A stretch of DNA of 9,225 nucleotides. Origin: Candidatus Sumerlaeota bacterium (lineage in GTDB: Bacteria > Sumerlaeota > Sumerlaeia > JAFGJS01). Where the stretch lies: positions 1 to 9,225 of the forward strand of contig JAFGJS010000112.1 of the NCBI GenBank assembly GCA_016928995.1, in the 5' to 3' direction. A program made the translations under genes and the position numbers. Positions 2,612 to 9,034 of this stretch are shown here, piece after piece (the stretch's first letter is position 1; each line of letters starts with the position of its first letter). The notes under the pieces are model-generated. The model saw only the letters and a program-made list of their open reading frames with translations, searched no databases and had not been told where the DNA came from.

Positions 2612-5002
2612 ATGAGCAACCTGCATCCCATCGAGCAGATCAAAGACGCAATCACGTGCTCCGAGTATGCCACGCAGCATCTGGGCCTGAATCTGGATCG
2701 CAACGGCCGCGGCGTGTCATTTCGCCCGGAAGCGGGCAATCCCACGTCGCTGATGGTCAACGAGCGCGACTGGTTCGACTTCGGCGGCAACTTCGGCGGC
2801 GACGTGATCGCCCTGTGCGCCCATGCAAAGTACGGCGGTCAAATGGGACCGGCGATTCGCGAGCTCGCGCAGCTGTGCGGGATCACGGAAAAGGCTCCAA
2901 TCCCTCATGACGAGGGCATTGAACAATATGCGCTTCAGGCGCATCAAAATCTCACACCGGAGGTGCGTGACTACCTGCATCAACGCGGCCTGACGGACGC
3001 CATGATTGATGAACTCAAACTTGGACTCGGAGGCCCCGGCCAGCACGAAGGACGGATCACTGTCCCTTATTGGAAGTCCCGGAAAATCGTGTATTTGGCC
3101 TCCCGGGCGTGGCTGGATCAAACCGGCCAGCCGAAGTACAAGAAGCACCGTCGCGGCCCATGGACCGATCACCCGATCTGGGGGAGTGATTCGATAGGGC
3201 ATGCCGGCCCGGTGATAATCGCGGAAGGCGCCTTTGACGCCATCACCGCTCTTCAAGCGGCCTTTCCAACATTGTCGCCGATCACCGGCGCATTCTCCAG
3301 AGAGCAACTGAAGGACGTTGTCAGCCTGCTCCGAGGGCGGCAGGCGATCATCTGTTTTGATTACGATCCCGACAGTCAGGCGGGCCAGAAGGCCACCCGC
3401 AAGCTGGCGGATTTTCTATGGTCGAAAGGCATCGCATCAAAAGTCCTGATGCTGGAAGACCACGCCGATTCCAAGGATCGCAAGGTTGACTTGAACGATC
3501 TGCATTCAAAGGGCGTGGACGTCAAAGCCCTGCTGCTGGAAAAATCAGTCGATTATTTCCAGGTCCGAATCCGCGAAATTTCACAATTGGAGGTGACGGA
3601 ACGCAAAAACAAGCTCGCTCAATTCCTGCAGCACGCCGCCAGGTGTTTTCCGTGGCCCGACGTGGCCGAGATGGCGGACCACGCGAAATCGCTGGAATCA
3701 TGGTCGGATGTCTGGCTGTCGGAATTGAAAAAGACCCTGCAGAAAGCTCCGTCGGACGACATCATTGTCGCCGAAGTCAAAAAGCAGCACATGCTGATCT
3801 ACAACGAGCACCTGGGATGGTACGAATACGACGAAACCAAGGGCGTCTGGACCCGGCGTTATGACACGGAGATCGAGGCCTATTGCGCCCAGGTCCTGGG
3901 CCGGTACAAGACCGGACCGCGCATCGCATCCGCCTACAAGTGCTGCAAGACGGAGTTCTGCAATCACACGCCGTTGAATCTGTGCCCGCTGATCAATTTC
4001 CGCAGCGGCATGCTCGATCCGGAAAATCTGCACATGAAGCCCCACGGTCCGGATTGGCGCTCCACCATTCAGATGAATTACGATTACGACCCCGCGGCCG
4101 ACTGTCCGTTATGGCGAGACTTCATCGACGACATCACGGACGGCGACCCCGAGCGCAAGCGGGTGTTGCAGCAGATGTTCGGCTACGCCATGTCGAACGA
4201 CCGCCGCTACCAGAAGTCTTTCTTCCTGGTCGGCGACGGCTCGAACGGCAAAAGCGTGCTGCTCAACATCCTGTCGCAACTCCTGGGCAAGGACAACGTG
4301 TCAAACGTCGAAATCGCTTCGCTCAACGAGCCCTTTCAGCGGATCTCGCTATACGGCAAGAGGGTGAACATCGCCTGTGAGACGGAAACCCGGGTCAAGG
4401 GCACCGAGCAAATCTTCAAGCAGATCGTCGCCGGCGACAGCATCAGCGGCTGCTACAAGGGCAAGGACTTCATCACCTTCCGCCCGACAACCCTGATGAT
4501 CTTCGCGGCGAATGAATTCAGCGAGACCTCGGACCTGACCCATGGCTTCCTGCGCCGCATCCAGTTCGTTCAATTCCCGATTCGCTTTGTGCAGGATCCC
4601 AAGTTGGCGAACGAACGGCCCAAGGATCAGATGATCGAAACGAAACTGATGGAGGAGTTGCCCGGCATCGCCGTTTGGGCGCTCTACGGTCTCAAGGACC
4701 TGCGCATAAATGACGGATTCGCCGAGACCGAAGAGCAGCGAACAATGATGAAAGAGTTCGTTGAAAAGTCCTCGCCATTGCAACTCTGGCTCGATGACTG
4801 GCCGGATGGCTACATGGAGACCTGGACGCAGCGCAAGACGGTCTACACGCATTACACGGACTGGGCCAAGGACAACAACTGCCGGCCGCTTTCCGCGCGG
4901 CGTTTCTGGCCGGAATTGCGCAAGCATGTGTCGTTCGTTGAGACACGTTCCGGGACCGGAAGGTGCGTCATGCTGAAAAGCCCGGAACAAGTGACGGCGT
5001 GA
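2612..5002 (+). CDS. Phage primase-helicase: CHC2-like, Toprim and D5/P4-type superfamily 3 helicase
   Basis: 796 residues, starting directly after the helicase stop. Residues about 5-90 resemble the N-terminal CHC2 domain of DnaG-type primases (VSFRPE...NPTSLMV...WFDFGGNFGGDVIAL), but the Cys/His ligand positions are replaced (S36, P39, D56, G59). Residues 113-165 look like the start of the RNA-polymerase basal domain (YLHQRGLTDAMI, GRITVPYW). The Toprim core follows: acidic E205 in IIAEGAFDA and the DxDxD cluster at 250-254 (FDYDPD). The second half is a D5_N region and a superfamily 3 helicase: Walker A GDGSNGKS 541-548, Walker B VNIACETE ending at E592, and the motif C Asn in FAANEF at 634. 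A winged-helix tail occupies about 738-796. It should prime and unwind DNA at the phage origin. The intergenic repeat array begins about 110 bases after its stop. Family call is firm; active priming is inferred. Confidence 0.93.
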   Translation: MSNLHPIEQIKDAITCSEYATQHLGLNLDRNGRGVSFRPEAGNPTSLMVNERDWFDFGGNFGGDVIALCAHAKYGGQMGPAIRELAQLCGITEKAPIPHDEGIEQYALQAHQNLTPEVRDYLHQRGLTDAMIDELKLGLGGPGQHEGRITVPYWKSRKIVYLASRAWLDQTGQPKYKKHRRGPWTDHPIWGSDSIGHAGPVIIAEGAFDAITALQAAFPTLSPITGAFSREQLKDVVSLLRGRQAIICFDYDPDSQAGQKATRKLADFLWSKGIASKVLMLEDHADSKDRKVDLNDLHSKGVDVKALLLEKSVDYFQVRIREISQLEVTERKNKLAQFLQHAARCFPWPDVAEMADHAKSLESWSDVWLSELKKTLQKAPSDDIIVAEVKKQHMLIYNEHLGWYEYDETKGVWTRRYDTEIEAYCAQVLGRYKTGPRIASAYKCCKTEFCNHTPLNLCPLINFRSGMLDPENLHMKPHGPDWRSTIQMNYDYDPAADCPLWRDFIDDITDGDPERKRVLQQMFGYAMSNDRRYQKSFFLVGDGSNGKSVLLNILSQLLGKDNVSNVEIASLNEPFQRISLYGKRVNIACETETRVKGTEQIFKQIVAGDSISGCYKGKDFITFRPTTLMIFAANEFSETSDLTHGFLRRIQFVQFPIRFVQDPKLANERPKDQMIETKLMEELPGIAVWALYGLKDLRINDGFAETEEQRTMMKEFVEKSSPLQLWLDDWPDGYMETWTQRKTVYTHYTDWAKDNNCRPLSARRFWPELRKHVSFVETRSGTGRCVMLKSPEQVTA

Positions 5003-5040: not shown

Positions 5041-5064
5041 CATTTTTGCTAATATGCAAAAATG
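5041..5064. repeat. Perfect 9-bp inverted repeat with 6-base loop
   Basis: CATTTTTGC (5041-5049) and GCAAAAATG (5056-5064) are exact reverse complements separated by TAATAT. It starts 38 bases after the primase stop. No T-run follows the stem, so it is a poor intrinsic terminator. An operator or initiator-binding palindrome is more likely, though unproven. Its right arm is part of the TGCAAAAATGGCG sequence that recurs near 5410. Confidence 0.6.
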
Positions 5065-5109
5065 GCGCTGTTTTGGATTTTATCAAGTTATGTGGGACAA
5101 ATAGGCGAT

Positions 5110-5366
5110 ATGACACGTTTAGTGACACGTATGACACATGGGAAAAGAAGTGACATGCAAAATAAATCAAATAAAATCAACGCTATGACAGAAGTGACAC
5201 TTTTTTTGATCTCCTATACTATATATATATTATTCGTTAGCGTTTCAAATCTCTATAGGCTGGTTAGGTATTCAATGTGTCACTTGTGTCATCGTATTCA
5301 TTTTACTATATTTAACCCCTTGTCACTTCTTTTGATAAGTGTCATTTTTATAGAACAAAGTGTCAT
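5110..5366. repeat. Dyad-symmetric array of eleven TGACA pentamers (iteron-like; candidate replication origin)
   Basis: TGACA on the + strand begins at 5111, 5123, 5132, 5151, 5186 and 5195. TGTCA (the same site inverted) begins at 5278, 5287, 5321, 5340 and 5361. Counting outward from the centre, step sizes are 9, 35, 19, 9, 12 on the left and 9, 34, 19, 21 on the right. Five left sites pair with five right sites about a centre at 5238-5238.5, and only 5123 has no partner. The flanks alternate between AAGTGACA/AGTGACA and ATGACA types on the left, and the same order holds on the right. Longer arms are conserved: 5131-5155 against 5321-5345 match at 21 of 25 positions, including an exact 13-mer (5143-5155 and 5321-5333), and 5185-5200 against 5277-5292 match at 15 of 16. 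Known iteron origins and multi-site operators use such arrays. The mirrored layout suggests an origin bound by a protein from both sides, but a centromere for a ParB-type system or a repressor array is possible. Confidence 0.75.
5215..5234. other. Alternating A/T tract, candidate DNA-unwinding element
   Basis: All bases are A or T except a C at 5219, mostly alternating TA. It lies between the innermost TGACA (5195) and TGTCA (5278), just left of the dyad centre. Easily melted tracts of this kind flank binding sites in many replication origins. It could equally be a -10-rich promoter region. Confidence 0.45.
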
Positions 5367-5532
5367 AGTATTAGAAATAAAAGACTTATGAGAGCAATAT
5401 AGAACAGTTTGCAAAATGGCGTATTCAATAACCATTCAGTTTCCATTTGGTCGGCTTCGGGTCCTTCCGAGGGGGGTACGGCGAGGGTTCGGCTTTTTGT
5501 TTGTCGCAATTTTTACACGAACTGAATTTTTT

Positions 5533-5540
5533 GGGAGAGG
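5533..5540 (+). promoter_or_regulatory. Ribosome binding site for the first ParB-like gene
   Basis: GGGAGAGG ends 9 bases before the ATG at 5550. It supports that start and shows that the right-hand gene block begins here with its own translation signal. Confidence 0.6.
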
Positions 5541-5549
5541 TAAGTAATT

Positions 5550-6206
5550 ATGACCAAACTGCAGGACAAGATCGCACTGAAAGATTTTTCGCCGGTTGGA
5601 TACAATCCCCGGGAAATCGCTCCCGAGGCCTTCGAGGGACTCAAGGCGTCGATTCGTGAATTCACGTCGACCGTGCAGGGCTGGGACGCGGCCAACGGTC
5701 TGCGCATGGTCGGCACGATCACGGTGAACGTGAACGGCAAACGGATCATCGGCGGCCATCAGCGGATCCGGGCGCTGCGCGAACTCGGGCAGGACTGGAT
5801 TCATCGCGACGACGTCACCTGGGTGGAGATCGAACCGGATTCGCCCAAGGAAAAGGCGCTGTGCGTCACGCTGAACAATCAGGAAATCGCCGGGCAGTTC
5901 ACGGCCGACCTGGACTTTCTGCTGTCCGACATTCGCGTGGAGATGCCGGCGTTCGACGATCTCGGGCTGGGCCTGCTCGAGGCTGATCTGGCCGGCGGTC
6001 TGGAAGACGGCATCCGGAACTCACCGGACCGCGCGAACAAAGCGGACGATCCCAAGGAACTGGCCGACGTCTGGTTCACCTTGGGCGAATACCGCTTTGA
6101 GGTGGAGCGCGGTCAGTACCTGCAATGGCAAGAGGCGTTGCGCCAGTCCGCGGGTTTCGCCGCGGCGGATTGCGTCAAGGAATTGCGCCGGAGGCTGGGA
6201 CTGTGA
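5550..6206 (+). CDS. ParB/Srx-fold N-terminal domain protein, phage type
   Basis: 218 residues. The N-terminal half is a ParB-like domain: GYNPREI at 17-23, a long insert with two Trp/Arg-rich turns, and KRIIGGHQRIRALRELG at about 64-80, where G69-H-Q-R corresponds to the GHRR box of ParB/KorB-type domains. The next part (ALCVTLNNQEIAGQFTADLDFLL) is the usual continuation seen in ParB-like proteins linked to DNA methyltransferases. The last 45 residues (WFTLGEYRFEVERGQYLQWQ...) resemble the linker that precedes a methylase domain in ParB-methylase fusions, but the methylase itself is absent here. There is no helix-turn-helix or C-terminal dimerisation domain of a true partition ParB, so I do not call it a plasmid-partition protein. 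It is probably part of the modification module with the next two genes. Its stop overlaps the next start by four bases (GTGA). Confidence 0.82.
   Translation: MTKLQDKIALKDFSPVGYNPREIAPEAFEGLKASIREFTSTVQGWDAANGLRMVGTITVNVNGKRIIGGHQRIRALRELGQDWIHRDDVTWVEIEPDSPKEKALCVTLNNQEIAGQFTADLDFLLSDIRVEMPAFDDLGLGLLEADLAGGLEDGIRNSPDRANKADDPKELADVWFTLGEYRFEVERGQYLQWQEALRQSAGFAAADCVKELRRRLGL
6190..6194 (+). promoter_or_regulatory. Shine-Dalgarno sequence fixing the GTG start at 6203
   Basis: GGAGG lies 8 bases upstream of GTG 6203. The longer possible start, ATG 6125, would overlap the previous gene by about 80 bases and has no comparable site, and the protein from 6203 begins like other ParB-like domains. 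GTG 6203 is therefore preferred. Confidence 0.7.
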
Positions 6207-7720
6207 ACCGAATCGAACTGACATCGCTCGAGGGGTTGACTCCGGCCAGTTACAACCCGCGCAAAGTTGATCCGGCGCGGCTGGAGCTGGTCAAACTTTC
6301 CTTGCGCAAACTCGGCTGGCTTTTGCCGGTGTACGTGGCGGAAGGCGGCGAAATCCTGAGCGGCCATCAGCGCACGTTCGTCGCCCGGGATTTGCCGTTC
6401 AAGCATGCGCCCGTGGTCCGGCTGGGCGCGATGCCGGATCACATCCGCAAGGCGGTGAACATCCTGTTCAACCGCAGCACGAACGACATGGACATCGACG
6501 TGGATTCCAGTTCACTGCTGGAAAGCCTCAAGGCTTCGAACGTGTATGACCTGGCCGAAGGATTGCCCGACGTTGACGAGAGTTCGGCGTATCCTTGCAT
6601 GCGGCTGGAACAGTTGCCGCTTGAACCGCTGCTGAAGGTCAACAGCGGGCGGTGGATCCGCTACGCGGCCAACGTGGCCAAGTCGCTTTACCGGCACAAG
6701 ATCGTGATGCCCGTGGCGCTGGATCCCGACGGCGTGGTGGTCAACGGCATCGGCCGGCTGCAGATGCTGGCCGAGAAGAAAGCCAAATACGTGGAATGCG
6801 TACGACTCTCGCGCGAGCAGGCCGAGTTTGCGCGGGTCATGCTAAATCTGCTCAGCATGGATTTCGACATCCACACGAAGTACGCCGACCTGCTGCGCTA
6901 CAACTCCTTTCGCCGCGCCAGGCGCACGCGCAGCGAACTCGGCCGCGGCTTCGTGTTCGCGCTGATCGGCAACAAGCCCGCGCACACCTTCGACATTCGC
7001 GACGCCGGCGACCGCGAGCGCTGGATCAAACTCTTTGGCCGGCGCGTGCTGGATTTCGGCGCCGGGCATCTCACGGAGACCCGGATGCTGCGCGAGAATG
7101 GCGTCGACGTGACGCCCTTTGAGCCGTACCGGCTCGGAGCGGACGGCCAGATCGACAAGGCGGAAAGCGTCGCGCTGGCCCGGGAGTTTTTGCGCCATGT
7201 GGCCGAGGGCAGGCAGTGGCGTTCAATCTTCATTTCCTCCGTGCTCAACTCGGTGCCGTTCTATCAGGACCGGCTGCAGCTGGTCCGGATCTGCGCGGCG
7301 CTGTGCCACGGCATCACGCGCGTCTATGCCGTGGCGTCCTCGGACAAGCAGGACGGCAGCGGCATCATTCAGATGCGCAAGAAGTATCTGAACCAGCGCG
7401 CGTCGTCGCACGCCGGTCTGGCCTTGAGTTATGAAGAGAACGTGTACCTGGGCGACATTCAGGAACTGCCGAAGGTGCAGAAGTTTCATTCGCTGGACGA
7501 GTTCTACAGCCTCTTCAAGACGGCCTTCAACCGTGTGAAAGTCGGCTACGACACGGGCAGCAACGTCAGCGCGATCGCGCAGGGCTGCGCCGGTTTCGAC
7601 GGGCTGCTGGACGCGTTGAAATTTGAATTCGATCTGCCGTATCCGGACGGCTCGCGCATGGGGCTGGCGGATGAAGCCGTCGCCGCGTTTGAACAGCGGC
7701 TGAAGATCAAGCTCAACTGA
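6203..7720 (+). CDS. ParB-like domain(s) fused to a class I SAM methyltransferase domain
   Basis: 505 residues from GTG 6203. The first 90 residues are a ParB-like domain (SYNPRK at 16-21, EILSGHQRTFVARDL at 50-64), clearly related to the preceding gene product. Residues about 148-235 contain a second, degenerate ParB-like segment (HKIVMPVALDPDGVVVNGIGRLQML, G182-x-G-R185) joined to a helical stretch. From about 280 a class I methyltransferase fold begins: motif I RVLDFGAGHLTET (281-293), an acidic beta2 end in TPFEPYR (E307), and a motif IV-like strand SIFISSVLNSVPFYQ (341-355). The Asn-x-Val/Pro turn there resembles orphan methyltransferases of modification systems, not a classical DPPY or cytosine PCQ enzyme. 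I see neither DPPY nor PCQ. The substrate is therefore unknown; DNA is the likely target because ParB-like domains bind DNA and the locus is phage. GC usage matches its neighbours. Confidence 0.72.
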   Translation: MNRIELTSLEGLTPASYNPRKVDPARLELVKLSLRKLGWLLPVYVAEGGEILSGHQRTFVARDLPFKHAPVVRLGAMPDHIRKAVNILFNRSTNDMDIDVDSSSLLESLKASNVYDLAEGLPDVDESSAYPCMRLEQLPLEPLLKVNSGRWIRYAANVAKSLYRHKIVMPVALDPDGVVVNGIGRLQMLAEKKAKYVECVRLSREQAEFARVMLNLLSMDFDIHTKYADLLRYNSFRRARRTRSELGRGFVFALIGNKPAHTFDIRDAGDRERWIKLFGRRVLDFGAGHLTETRMLRENGVDVTPFEPYRLGADGQIDKAESVALAREFLRHVAEGRQWRSIFISSVLNSVPFYQDRLQLVRICAALCHGITRVYAVASSDKQDGSGIIQMRKKYLNQRASSHAGLALSYEENVYLGDIQELPKVQKFHSLDEFYSLFKTAFNRVKVGYDTGSNVSAIAQGCAGFDGLLDALKFEFDLPYPDGSRMGLADEAVAAFEQRLKIKLN

Positions 7721-8452: not shown

Positions 8453-9034
8453 ATGGCGGAAATTGTTGTGTCCGACGAAGACCGCCGGTTGGCGCTGGCC
8501 GCCCTTGAAAAGAAGAAACAGGGCCGGCGCGTGTCGCGCGATGAATCGAACGCGCTGAAACGGGTGCAGCAGGAGCGCGAGGAGCGCCTGCGCTGGGACC
8601 ACTACCGTTCCGTGCCCAAGCGGCACTACATCGCGATGAGCGGACGCCAGGCGCGCACGGTGAACGCCCAGGCGGATTTGTACGGCTTCCCGCTGCGTGG
8701 CGACACGTTGGACCTGAGCAAGGTGTTGAAGGCCTTTCATGACTTCCTGGCCGACAACAAATTCAAACTGATGCGCGACGATCAGCCGGCCGAGAAGGCC
8801 CTGACTCCATTGGAACGGGAGCGGCATCGGCGGTTGAAACGGGAAAATGACATCGAGGAAAAGAACCTGTTTCCGAGGGAAGATATTCAGCAGATGCATG
8901 ATTATCTAAGCTCGTTGCTGCGGTCCGCCACTGATGTCCTTCAGCGCAAGCATGGCCGCGAAGCGAAGGCCATCATCGACGAAGTGATTCAGCGATTCGA
9001 GGAAGAGCTTCAGAAATGCATGAAAAGGAAATGA
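8453..9034 (+). CDS. Terminase small subunit-like DNA-binding protein (Nu1-like)
   Basis: 193 residues starting one base after the CmoA-like stop, with AGGGGGA at 8441-8447 upstream. Residues 1-50 are strongly charged and helical (EKKKQGRRVSRDE). Residues about 52-100 look like a winged-helix/HTH with a Nu1-type layout: a helix-turn-helix-like SGRQARTVNAQADLYGFPLRG followed by the LDLSKVLKAFHDFL helix. Residues about 117-145 form a coiled-coil-like basic/acidic stretch (ERERHRRLKRENDIEEKNL) ending in FPRED, as in lambda Nu1-like small terminases. A C-terminal helical bundle with many Arg/Lys/Glu residues ends the protein. A small terminase recognises phage DNA for packaging and regulates the large subunit, which appears to start just downstream. 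The HTH call is moderate; a general phage DNA-binding protein is the alternative. Confidence 0.62.
   Translation: MAEIVVSDEDRRLALAALEKKKQGRRVSRDESNALKRVQQEREERLRWDHYRSVPKRHYIAMSGRQARTVNAQADLYGFPLRGDTLDLSKVLKAFHDFLADNKFKLMRDDQPAEKALTPLERERHRRLKRENDIEEKNLFPREDIQQMHDYLSSLLRSATDVLQRKHGREAKAIIDEVIQRFEEELQKCMKRK

Follow-up and report, generated by a model that had tools for sequence, protein, structure and literature searches.

The stretch of DNA analysed here (the window) is an entire contig of 9,225 bp from a genome of 4.5 Mb, and it carries, immediately 3' of the gene for a primase-helicase, an array of TGACA repeats that is very probably a replication origin of a phage or prophage, bound by the C-terminal domain of that primase-helicase. 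This kind of origin has already been described for SaPIs and PICIs and is found here in a new phage. The initial annotation, made from the letters, had read the array as an origin loaded by an initiator, possibly the neighbouring primase-helicase, and this reading is supported by the arrays of relatives, which have the same place and geometry but use other words, and by the membership of the protein in the P4/SaPI5 family. The array starts 108 bp past the stop of the candidate initiator gene (5002). The elements of the proposed origin and its initiator are as follows.

2612-5002, + strand: gene for the primase-helicase (796 aa), the proposed initiator, with Toprim, D5_N, SF3 helicase and a predicted C-terminal winged helix (Pfam, TIGR01613, 7OLA).
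4769-4978, + strand: codons for the predicted C-terminal winged helix, residues 720-789, the proposed iteron reader (domain model, pLDDT 82).
5111-5136, + strand: outer left iterons, TGACA at 5111, 5123 and 5132 in steps of 12 and 9 (exact search).
5151-5155, + strand: lone middle left iteron, the mirror of 5321-5325 (exact search).
5186-5199, + strand: inner left dimer, TGACA at 5186 and 5195 (9-bp step), the core element common to relatives (exact search).
5200-5277, no strand: AT-rich spacer (71% A+T) that includes TATACTATATATATATTATT, the proposed melting region (composition and facing-dimer analysis).
5278-5291, - strand: inner right dimer, TGACA at 5278 and 5287 (9-bp step; exact search and facing-dimer analysis).
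5321-5325, - strand: lone middle right iteron (exact search).
5340-5365, - strand: outer right iterons at 5340 and 5361 (exact search).

An exact search of the window places eleven TGACA at 5111-5365, six on the + strand (starts 5111, 5123, 5132, 5151, 5186 and 5195) followed by five on the - strand (starts 5278, 5287, 5321, 5340 and 5361), as the initial annotation had counted them; beyond the array the pentamer is not enriched, with eight further copies in the 9.2 kb. All eleven sites have the form (A/G)TGACA, eight of them are followed by C, and the contexts AAGTGACA and TATGACA recur. With its flanking bases (5185-5200) the inner left dimer reads ATGACAGAAGTGACAC, and ATGACANAAGTGACAC fits the inner dimers of both sides. 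The strand of single sites is to be read with caution because the core GTGACAC is nearly its own reverse complement. The array has a GC content of 32%, compared with 58-64% in the adjoining genes. An open reading frame of 109 codons that spans it (5062-5391) was rejected as spurious, since it matches no family and is AT-rich in a way that the genes are not; Rfam likewise gave no match.

The matched outward steps that had been described (9, 35, 19 and 9 + 12 on the left; 9, 34, 19 and 21 on the right) and the mirror point near 5238 are both confirmed by the coordinates: five pairs share a centre at 5238.0-5238.5 (left start plus right mirror base: 10476, 10476, 10476, 10477 and 10477), and the TGACA at 5123 is the sole site that lacks a mirror partner. 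A palindrome search likewise recovered the conserved arms, as inverted arms of 41 nt (78%) and 25 nt (84%). Nor does AT-richness, dismissed in the initial annotation as a cause of the dyad order, explain the repeats: 3000 dinucleotide shuffles of the 400 bp around the array, which allow for the AT-rich composition, contained 1.25 TGACA on average and never more than 6, where 11 are present. Among 200,000 random placements that kept six sites on the left and five on the right, a centre shared by five pairs arose 366 times. Across all pentamers, the observed mirror statistic was reached by 3 of 3000 shuffles, and the symmetry of a few sites is therefore insufficient by itself; copy number and the relatives decide.

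The two halves of the array may descend from an inverted duplication. At the mirror centre, 38 of 71 arm bases outside the repeats are identical (54%); wrong centres give an arm match of 29% (sd 4.5%). Folding of the strand also surpasses that of its shuffles (z -4.3) because the arms are inverted. Both observations would fit a decaying inverted duplication or a structural hairpin to which no protein binds. We nevertheless regard this explanation as extremely unlikely: the repeats are specially kept, since the paired motif bases match at 25 of 25 positions, and the plan recurs in relatives with unrelated sequences. A duplication may be the source of the halves, but it leaves their upkeep unexplained.

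The candidate initiator matches Toprim_3, D5_N and DUF5906 in Pfam and the phage/plasmid primase P4 family TIGR01613 (197.4 bits; cut-off 108.7), and its closest solved relative is the SaPI5 primase-helicase (PDB 7OLA; 7e-18 by sequence, 4e-22 by predicted fold). The winged helix, predicted for the last ~75 residues, aligns with the P4 origin-binding domain 1KA8 over 67 residues (Z 6.9, rmsd 2.1), a score that unrelated winged helices reach similarly.

To the left of the array the + strand encodes, in order, a ParB/KorB-like end, a resolvase-like protein, a J-domain protein, an SF2 helicase and the primase-helicase; to its right follow two ParB-like genes (5550-6206 and 6125-7720), a methyltransferase and a gene resembling those for terminase small subunits (8453-9034; phrog_57, E 4e-5). 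The contig most likely comes from a phage or prophage. With regard to the features of PICI elements, the terminase-like gene and phage genes are present, and neither an integrase nor stl/rpr is seen in the 9.2-kb contig. In the + strand genes GC skew lies between -0.04 and +0.05 left of the array and between +0.04 and +0.11 right of it. This rise is a small signal and a weak sign of bidirectional replication; its direction agrees in 15 of 22 relatives. A skew inflection had been among the checks proposed in the initial annotation. No DnaA box was found, which is neutral for a helicase that loads itself.

Relatives were collected by the primase-helicase alone, and the 600 bp past each gene were scanned at 70 distinct loci, an array being defined as at least five copies of one 7-mer. 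Arrays follow the primase gene at 32 of the 70 loci, compared with none in the upstream 600 bp and six at 900-1500 bp downstream. The lowest possible shuffle p (0.016) was also reached by 32 of the 70, a set that overlaps with, but is not identical to, the set defined by 7-mer counts. The repeat word varies among relatives and includes CATTACG, TGTTCCA, TTACCGA, AGTAACA and GTCCACA. Thus, of the expectation that the same array would be found downstream of the primase-helicase in related phages, position and spacing plan recur and the TGACA word is not kept. At about 0.9-1.5 kb after the primase gene, three loci (L102, L080 and L084) have a second cluster of 6-10 identical 7-mers.

What recurs is best described as a facing-dimer core, defined as a pair of repeats on the same strand 7-12 bp apart, a spacer of 79-116 bp and a pair on the opposite strand 7-12 bp apart. 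This core is present in 18 of 33 arrays, the window array included, compared with 0.89 expected from random placement of the same numbers of sites, and the spacer is mostly richer in AT than the arms. Loci L080-L093 largely form one clade, so the 18 arrays represent fewer independent events; distant relatives (L009, L112, L115, L138 and L145) also have the core. Exact symmetry of the whole array is rarer among relatives, and mirror tests with the common 7-mer motif were non-significant in most of them when taken one by one. It is clear in L145 (TGTTCCA; four mirror pairs, 0 of 2000 random placements), in L138 (p 0.007; whole-arm z 6.5) and, by whole-arm mirror z, in Pseudanabaena phage Pan4 (6.5), satellite Javan612 (4.4) and Lactobacillus phage MLC-A (3.6), of which Pan4 and MLC-A are complete phages.

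By the 7-mer test about half of the relatives have no enriched array, and the four closest relatives (L074, L075, L076 and L100) have no clear one; the array is either not universal or too diverged for this test. An array after every gene of this type is ruled out by actinophages and some Vibrio relatives that have none; in actinophages such as ChiliPepper a polymerase gene occupies its place. The exact dimer ATGACANAAGTGACAC occurs at 33 places in viral contigs, by a rough estimate not above chance, and few of these have clustered TGACA. In three viral contigs (L049:2226-2366, L051:2886-3026 and L060:866-1006) five consecutive TGACA stand in 9-bp steps on one strand, together with two more.

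The repeats also co-vary with one part of the protein. Over their first 700 residues the primases of the sister viruses L005 and L007 match at 699 positions, and identity falls to about 73% in the C-terminal ~113 residues (74 of 100, then 8 of 13). The repeats after the gene differ in parallel: at L005:7392-7730 they are AGCGTACT/AGTACACT-like and at L007:7398-7737 AACGCACT/AGTGCG-like, with TAGCGTACTA in the former corresponding to TAACGCACTT in the latter and paired AGTACACT to paired AGTACATT; much of the spacer is alike in the two. Among L080-L093, most pairs show lower conservation in the C-terminal domain than in the remainder of the protein (e.g. 0.62 versus 0.84), and differing repeat sequences stand at nearly equal positions. 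Our regular expression for iteron change in this clade was too loose (2.1 versus 2.5 mismatches), and the claim is based on the visible sequences and on L005/L007. That the repeat word and the C-terminal domain change together is as expected if that domain reads the repeats.

The co-variation bears on the proposal that the array is a parS-like centromere or an operator array for a phage ParB-like protein. Two ParB-like genes flank it on the right, the cut gene at the left end (3-425) also encodes a ParB/KorB-like end, judged by a near-identical relative in L039, and parS sites can consist of clustered repeats. Against these points, the repeat word tracks the C-terminal domain of the primase in L005/L007, no ParB-like homologue lies within 3-5 kb on either side of the comparable arrays of relatives, and the sole two weak ParB-like matches (L117 and L120) are at loci without a clear array. 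A search for relatives by means of the second ParB-like protein found none and, weak matches apart, none of the other genes of the window, including the J-domain, ParB-like and terminase genes, has a counterpart near the arrays of relatives. We therefore consider a centromere or operator bound by a ParB-like protein very unlikely. A ParB centromere had been listed in the initial annotation as an alternative alongside a repressor array, and neither alternative gained support.

An operator array for a transcriptional regulator of the downstream late genes is improbable to the same degree. In its favor are the likeness of TGACA to the -35 hexamer TTGACA, a -10-like hexamer suitably spaced from each of two GTGACA sites, and the location of the array between early and late genes. 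However, promoter-like matches are at shuffle level (3 versus 2.1 expected), and a promoter or operator needs no facing dimers around an AT spacer, an arrangement that relatives keep with other motifs. Alternatively, the array may conceivably have a dual role as origin and in autoregulation.

A 91-bp element lies 90 bp downstream of the array (5455-5545) and is 86% identical to C35:2505-2595 on the - strand, C35 being a contig of another phage segment in the same genome; in both contigs it directly precedes a ParB-like gene. The element contains GGGTCCTTCCGAGGGGGG, which we take to recall lambda cosQ, and it is a candidate cos/packaging site or late leader. It has no match in the phage collection, nor, by exact pattern, in viral contigs. 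Contig C35 (L039) has a closely similar KorB-like gene and an unrelated replicase (PriCT_2 + AAA_25, phrog_2597), and directly after this replicase (L039:3166-3365) come about 14 GATTTCCC/ATTTCC repeats, often paired and on alternating strands, which are probably the origin of that other phage.

The proximity of this shared element, together with the terminase-small-subunit-like gene at 8453-9034, would be compatible with the array being part of a cos/pac packaging site that is bound by the small terminase. L039 retains the 91-bp element, but there a different array adjoins a different replicase, away from the element, and no terminase homologue was found near the arrays of relatives. A role in packaging therefore seems a most improbable explanation of the array, and we favor an origin that is read by the primase-helicase.

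This origin can be compared with several characterized systems. In PICIs the origin is located immediately 3' of rep, two sets of iterons invariably flank an AT-rich region, and rep together with ori replicates a plasmid (PMC6092414). The same layout is present in the window, with sets of six and five iterons facing each other across the spacer; as in SaPIbov1 and the E. coli PICIs (PMC6092414), the array is directly 3' of the initiator gene and the initiator is a helicase, and the initiators of SaPI5 and the window are both of the D5/SF3 family (7OLA). The iteron sequence differs from those of SaPIs and PICIs, the symmetry in the window holds to within 1 bp across 255 bp, and the carrier, with its terminase-like and phage genes, looks like a phage or prophage and unlike a SaPI/PICI satellite. 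Moreover, the primase part of the window protein is a Toprim domain, in contrast to the AEP-type primases of SaPIs (PMC7581432).

The D5-family helicase Cch2 of SCCmec, a relative of SaPI5 Rep, has AAGTG repeats just downstream of its gene, and its isolated C-terminal domain binds them (PMC7581432). AAGTG also lies inside several of the window repeats (AAGTGACA), which may be a coincidence. In contrast to the window, Cch2 has only three iterons, termed direct repeats, and its primase is a separate protein (PMC7581432). Binding to repeats directly downstream of the own gene is common to the members of the P4/SaPI5 family that have been studied (PMC6092414, PMC7581432). MLC-A, Pan4 and Javan612 resemble the window in having mirror-symmetric arrays directly after a D5-family gene, with different iteron sequences; in the stretches of these three that we examined no origin is annotated.

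P4 alpha shares with the window protein the Toprim_3, D5_N and DUF5906 domains and, by the predicted fold of the latter, a winged helix, which in P4 is the DNA-binding domain; the window protein falls into TIGR01613; P4 alpha shows zinc-ribbon and Pox_D5 matches, and the window protein has neither in Pfam. In P4, crr is a 120-bp direct duplication, and ori lies elsewhere. The annotated crr begins 46 bp after the alpha gene and has type 1 repeats on both strands. The window array is akin to crr, but its halves are inverted and those of crr are direct, which sets it apart from the crr type.

By likeness to the SaPI/PICI origins and to Cch2, we propose a mechanism in which the C-terminal winged helix of the primase-helicase encoded upstream would bind the TGACA repeats. 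Owing to the opposed orientation of the iteron sets on either side of the AT-rich spacer, two hexamers would assemble on opposite sides, aimed at the spacer, in a double-hexamer loading. The spacer would then melt, the SF3 motor would unwind the DNA and the Toprim domain would make primers, and two forks, i.e. bidirectional replication, would result.

The 2018 study of PICIs held the layout to be unique to these elements (PMC6092414). Here it is found in phages that infect several hosts, its spacing constant and its repeat words variable; in the open-licence literature we found no paper that describes its general occurrence in phages. On balance, we are inclined to think that facing dimers around an AT spacer are a general origin plan of the self-loading phage helicases of the P4/D5 family and not a hallmark of PICIs, and that iteron word and winged helix vary in concert while the spacing stays fixed, which would give sister phages separate, mutually independent origins. 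The fixed spacing points to a geometric constraint on the face-to-face loading of two hexameric helicases, and L005 and L007 form a natural pair in which sole control of origin choice by the C-terminal domain can be tested directly.
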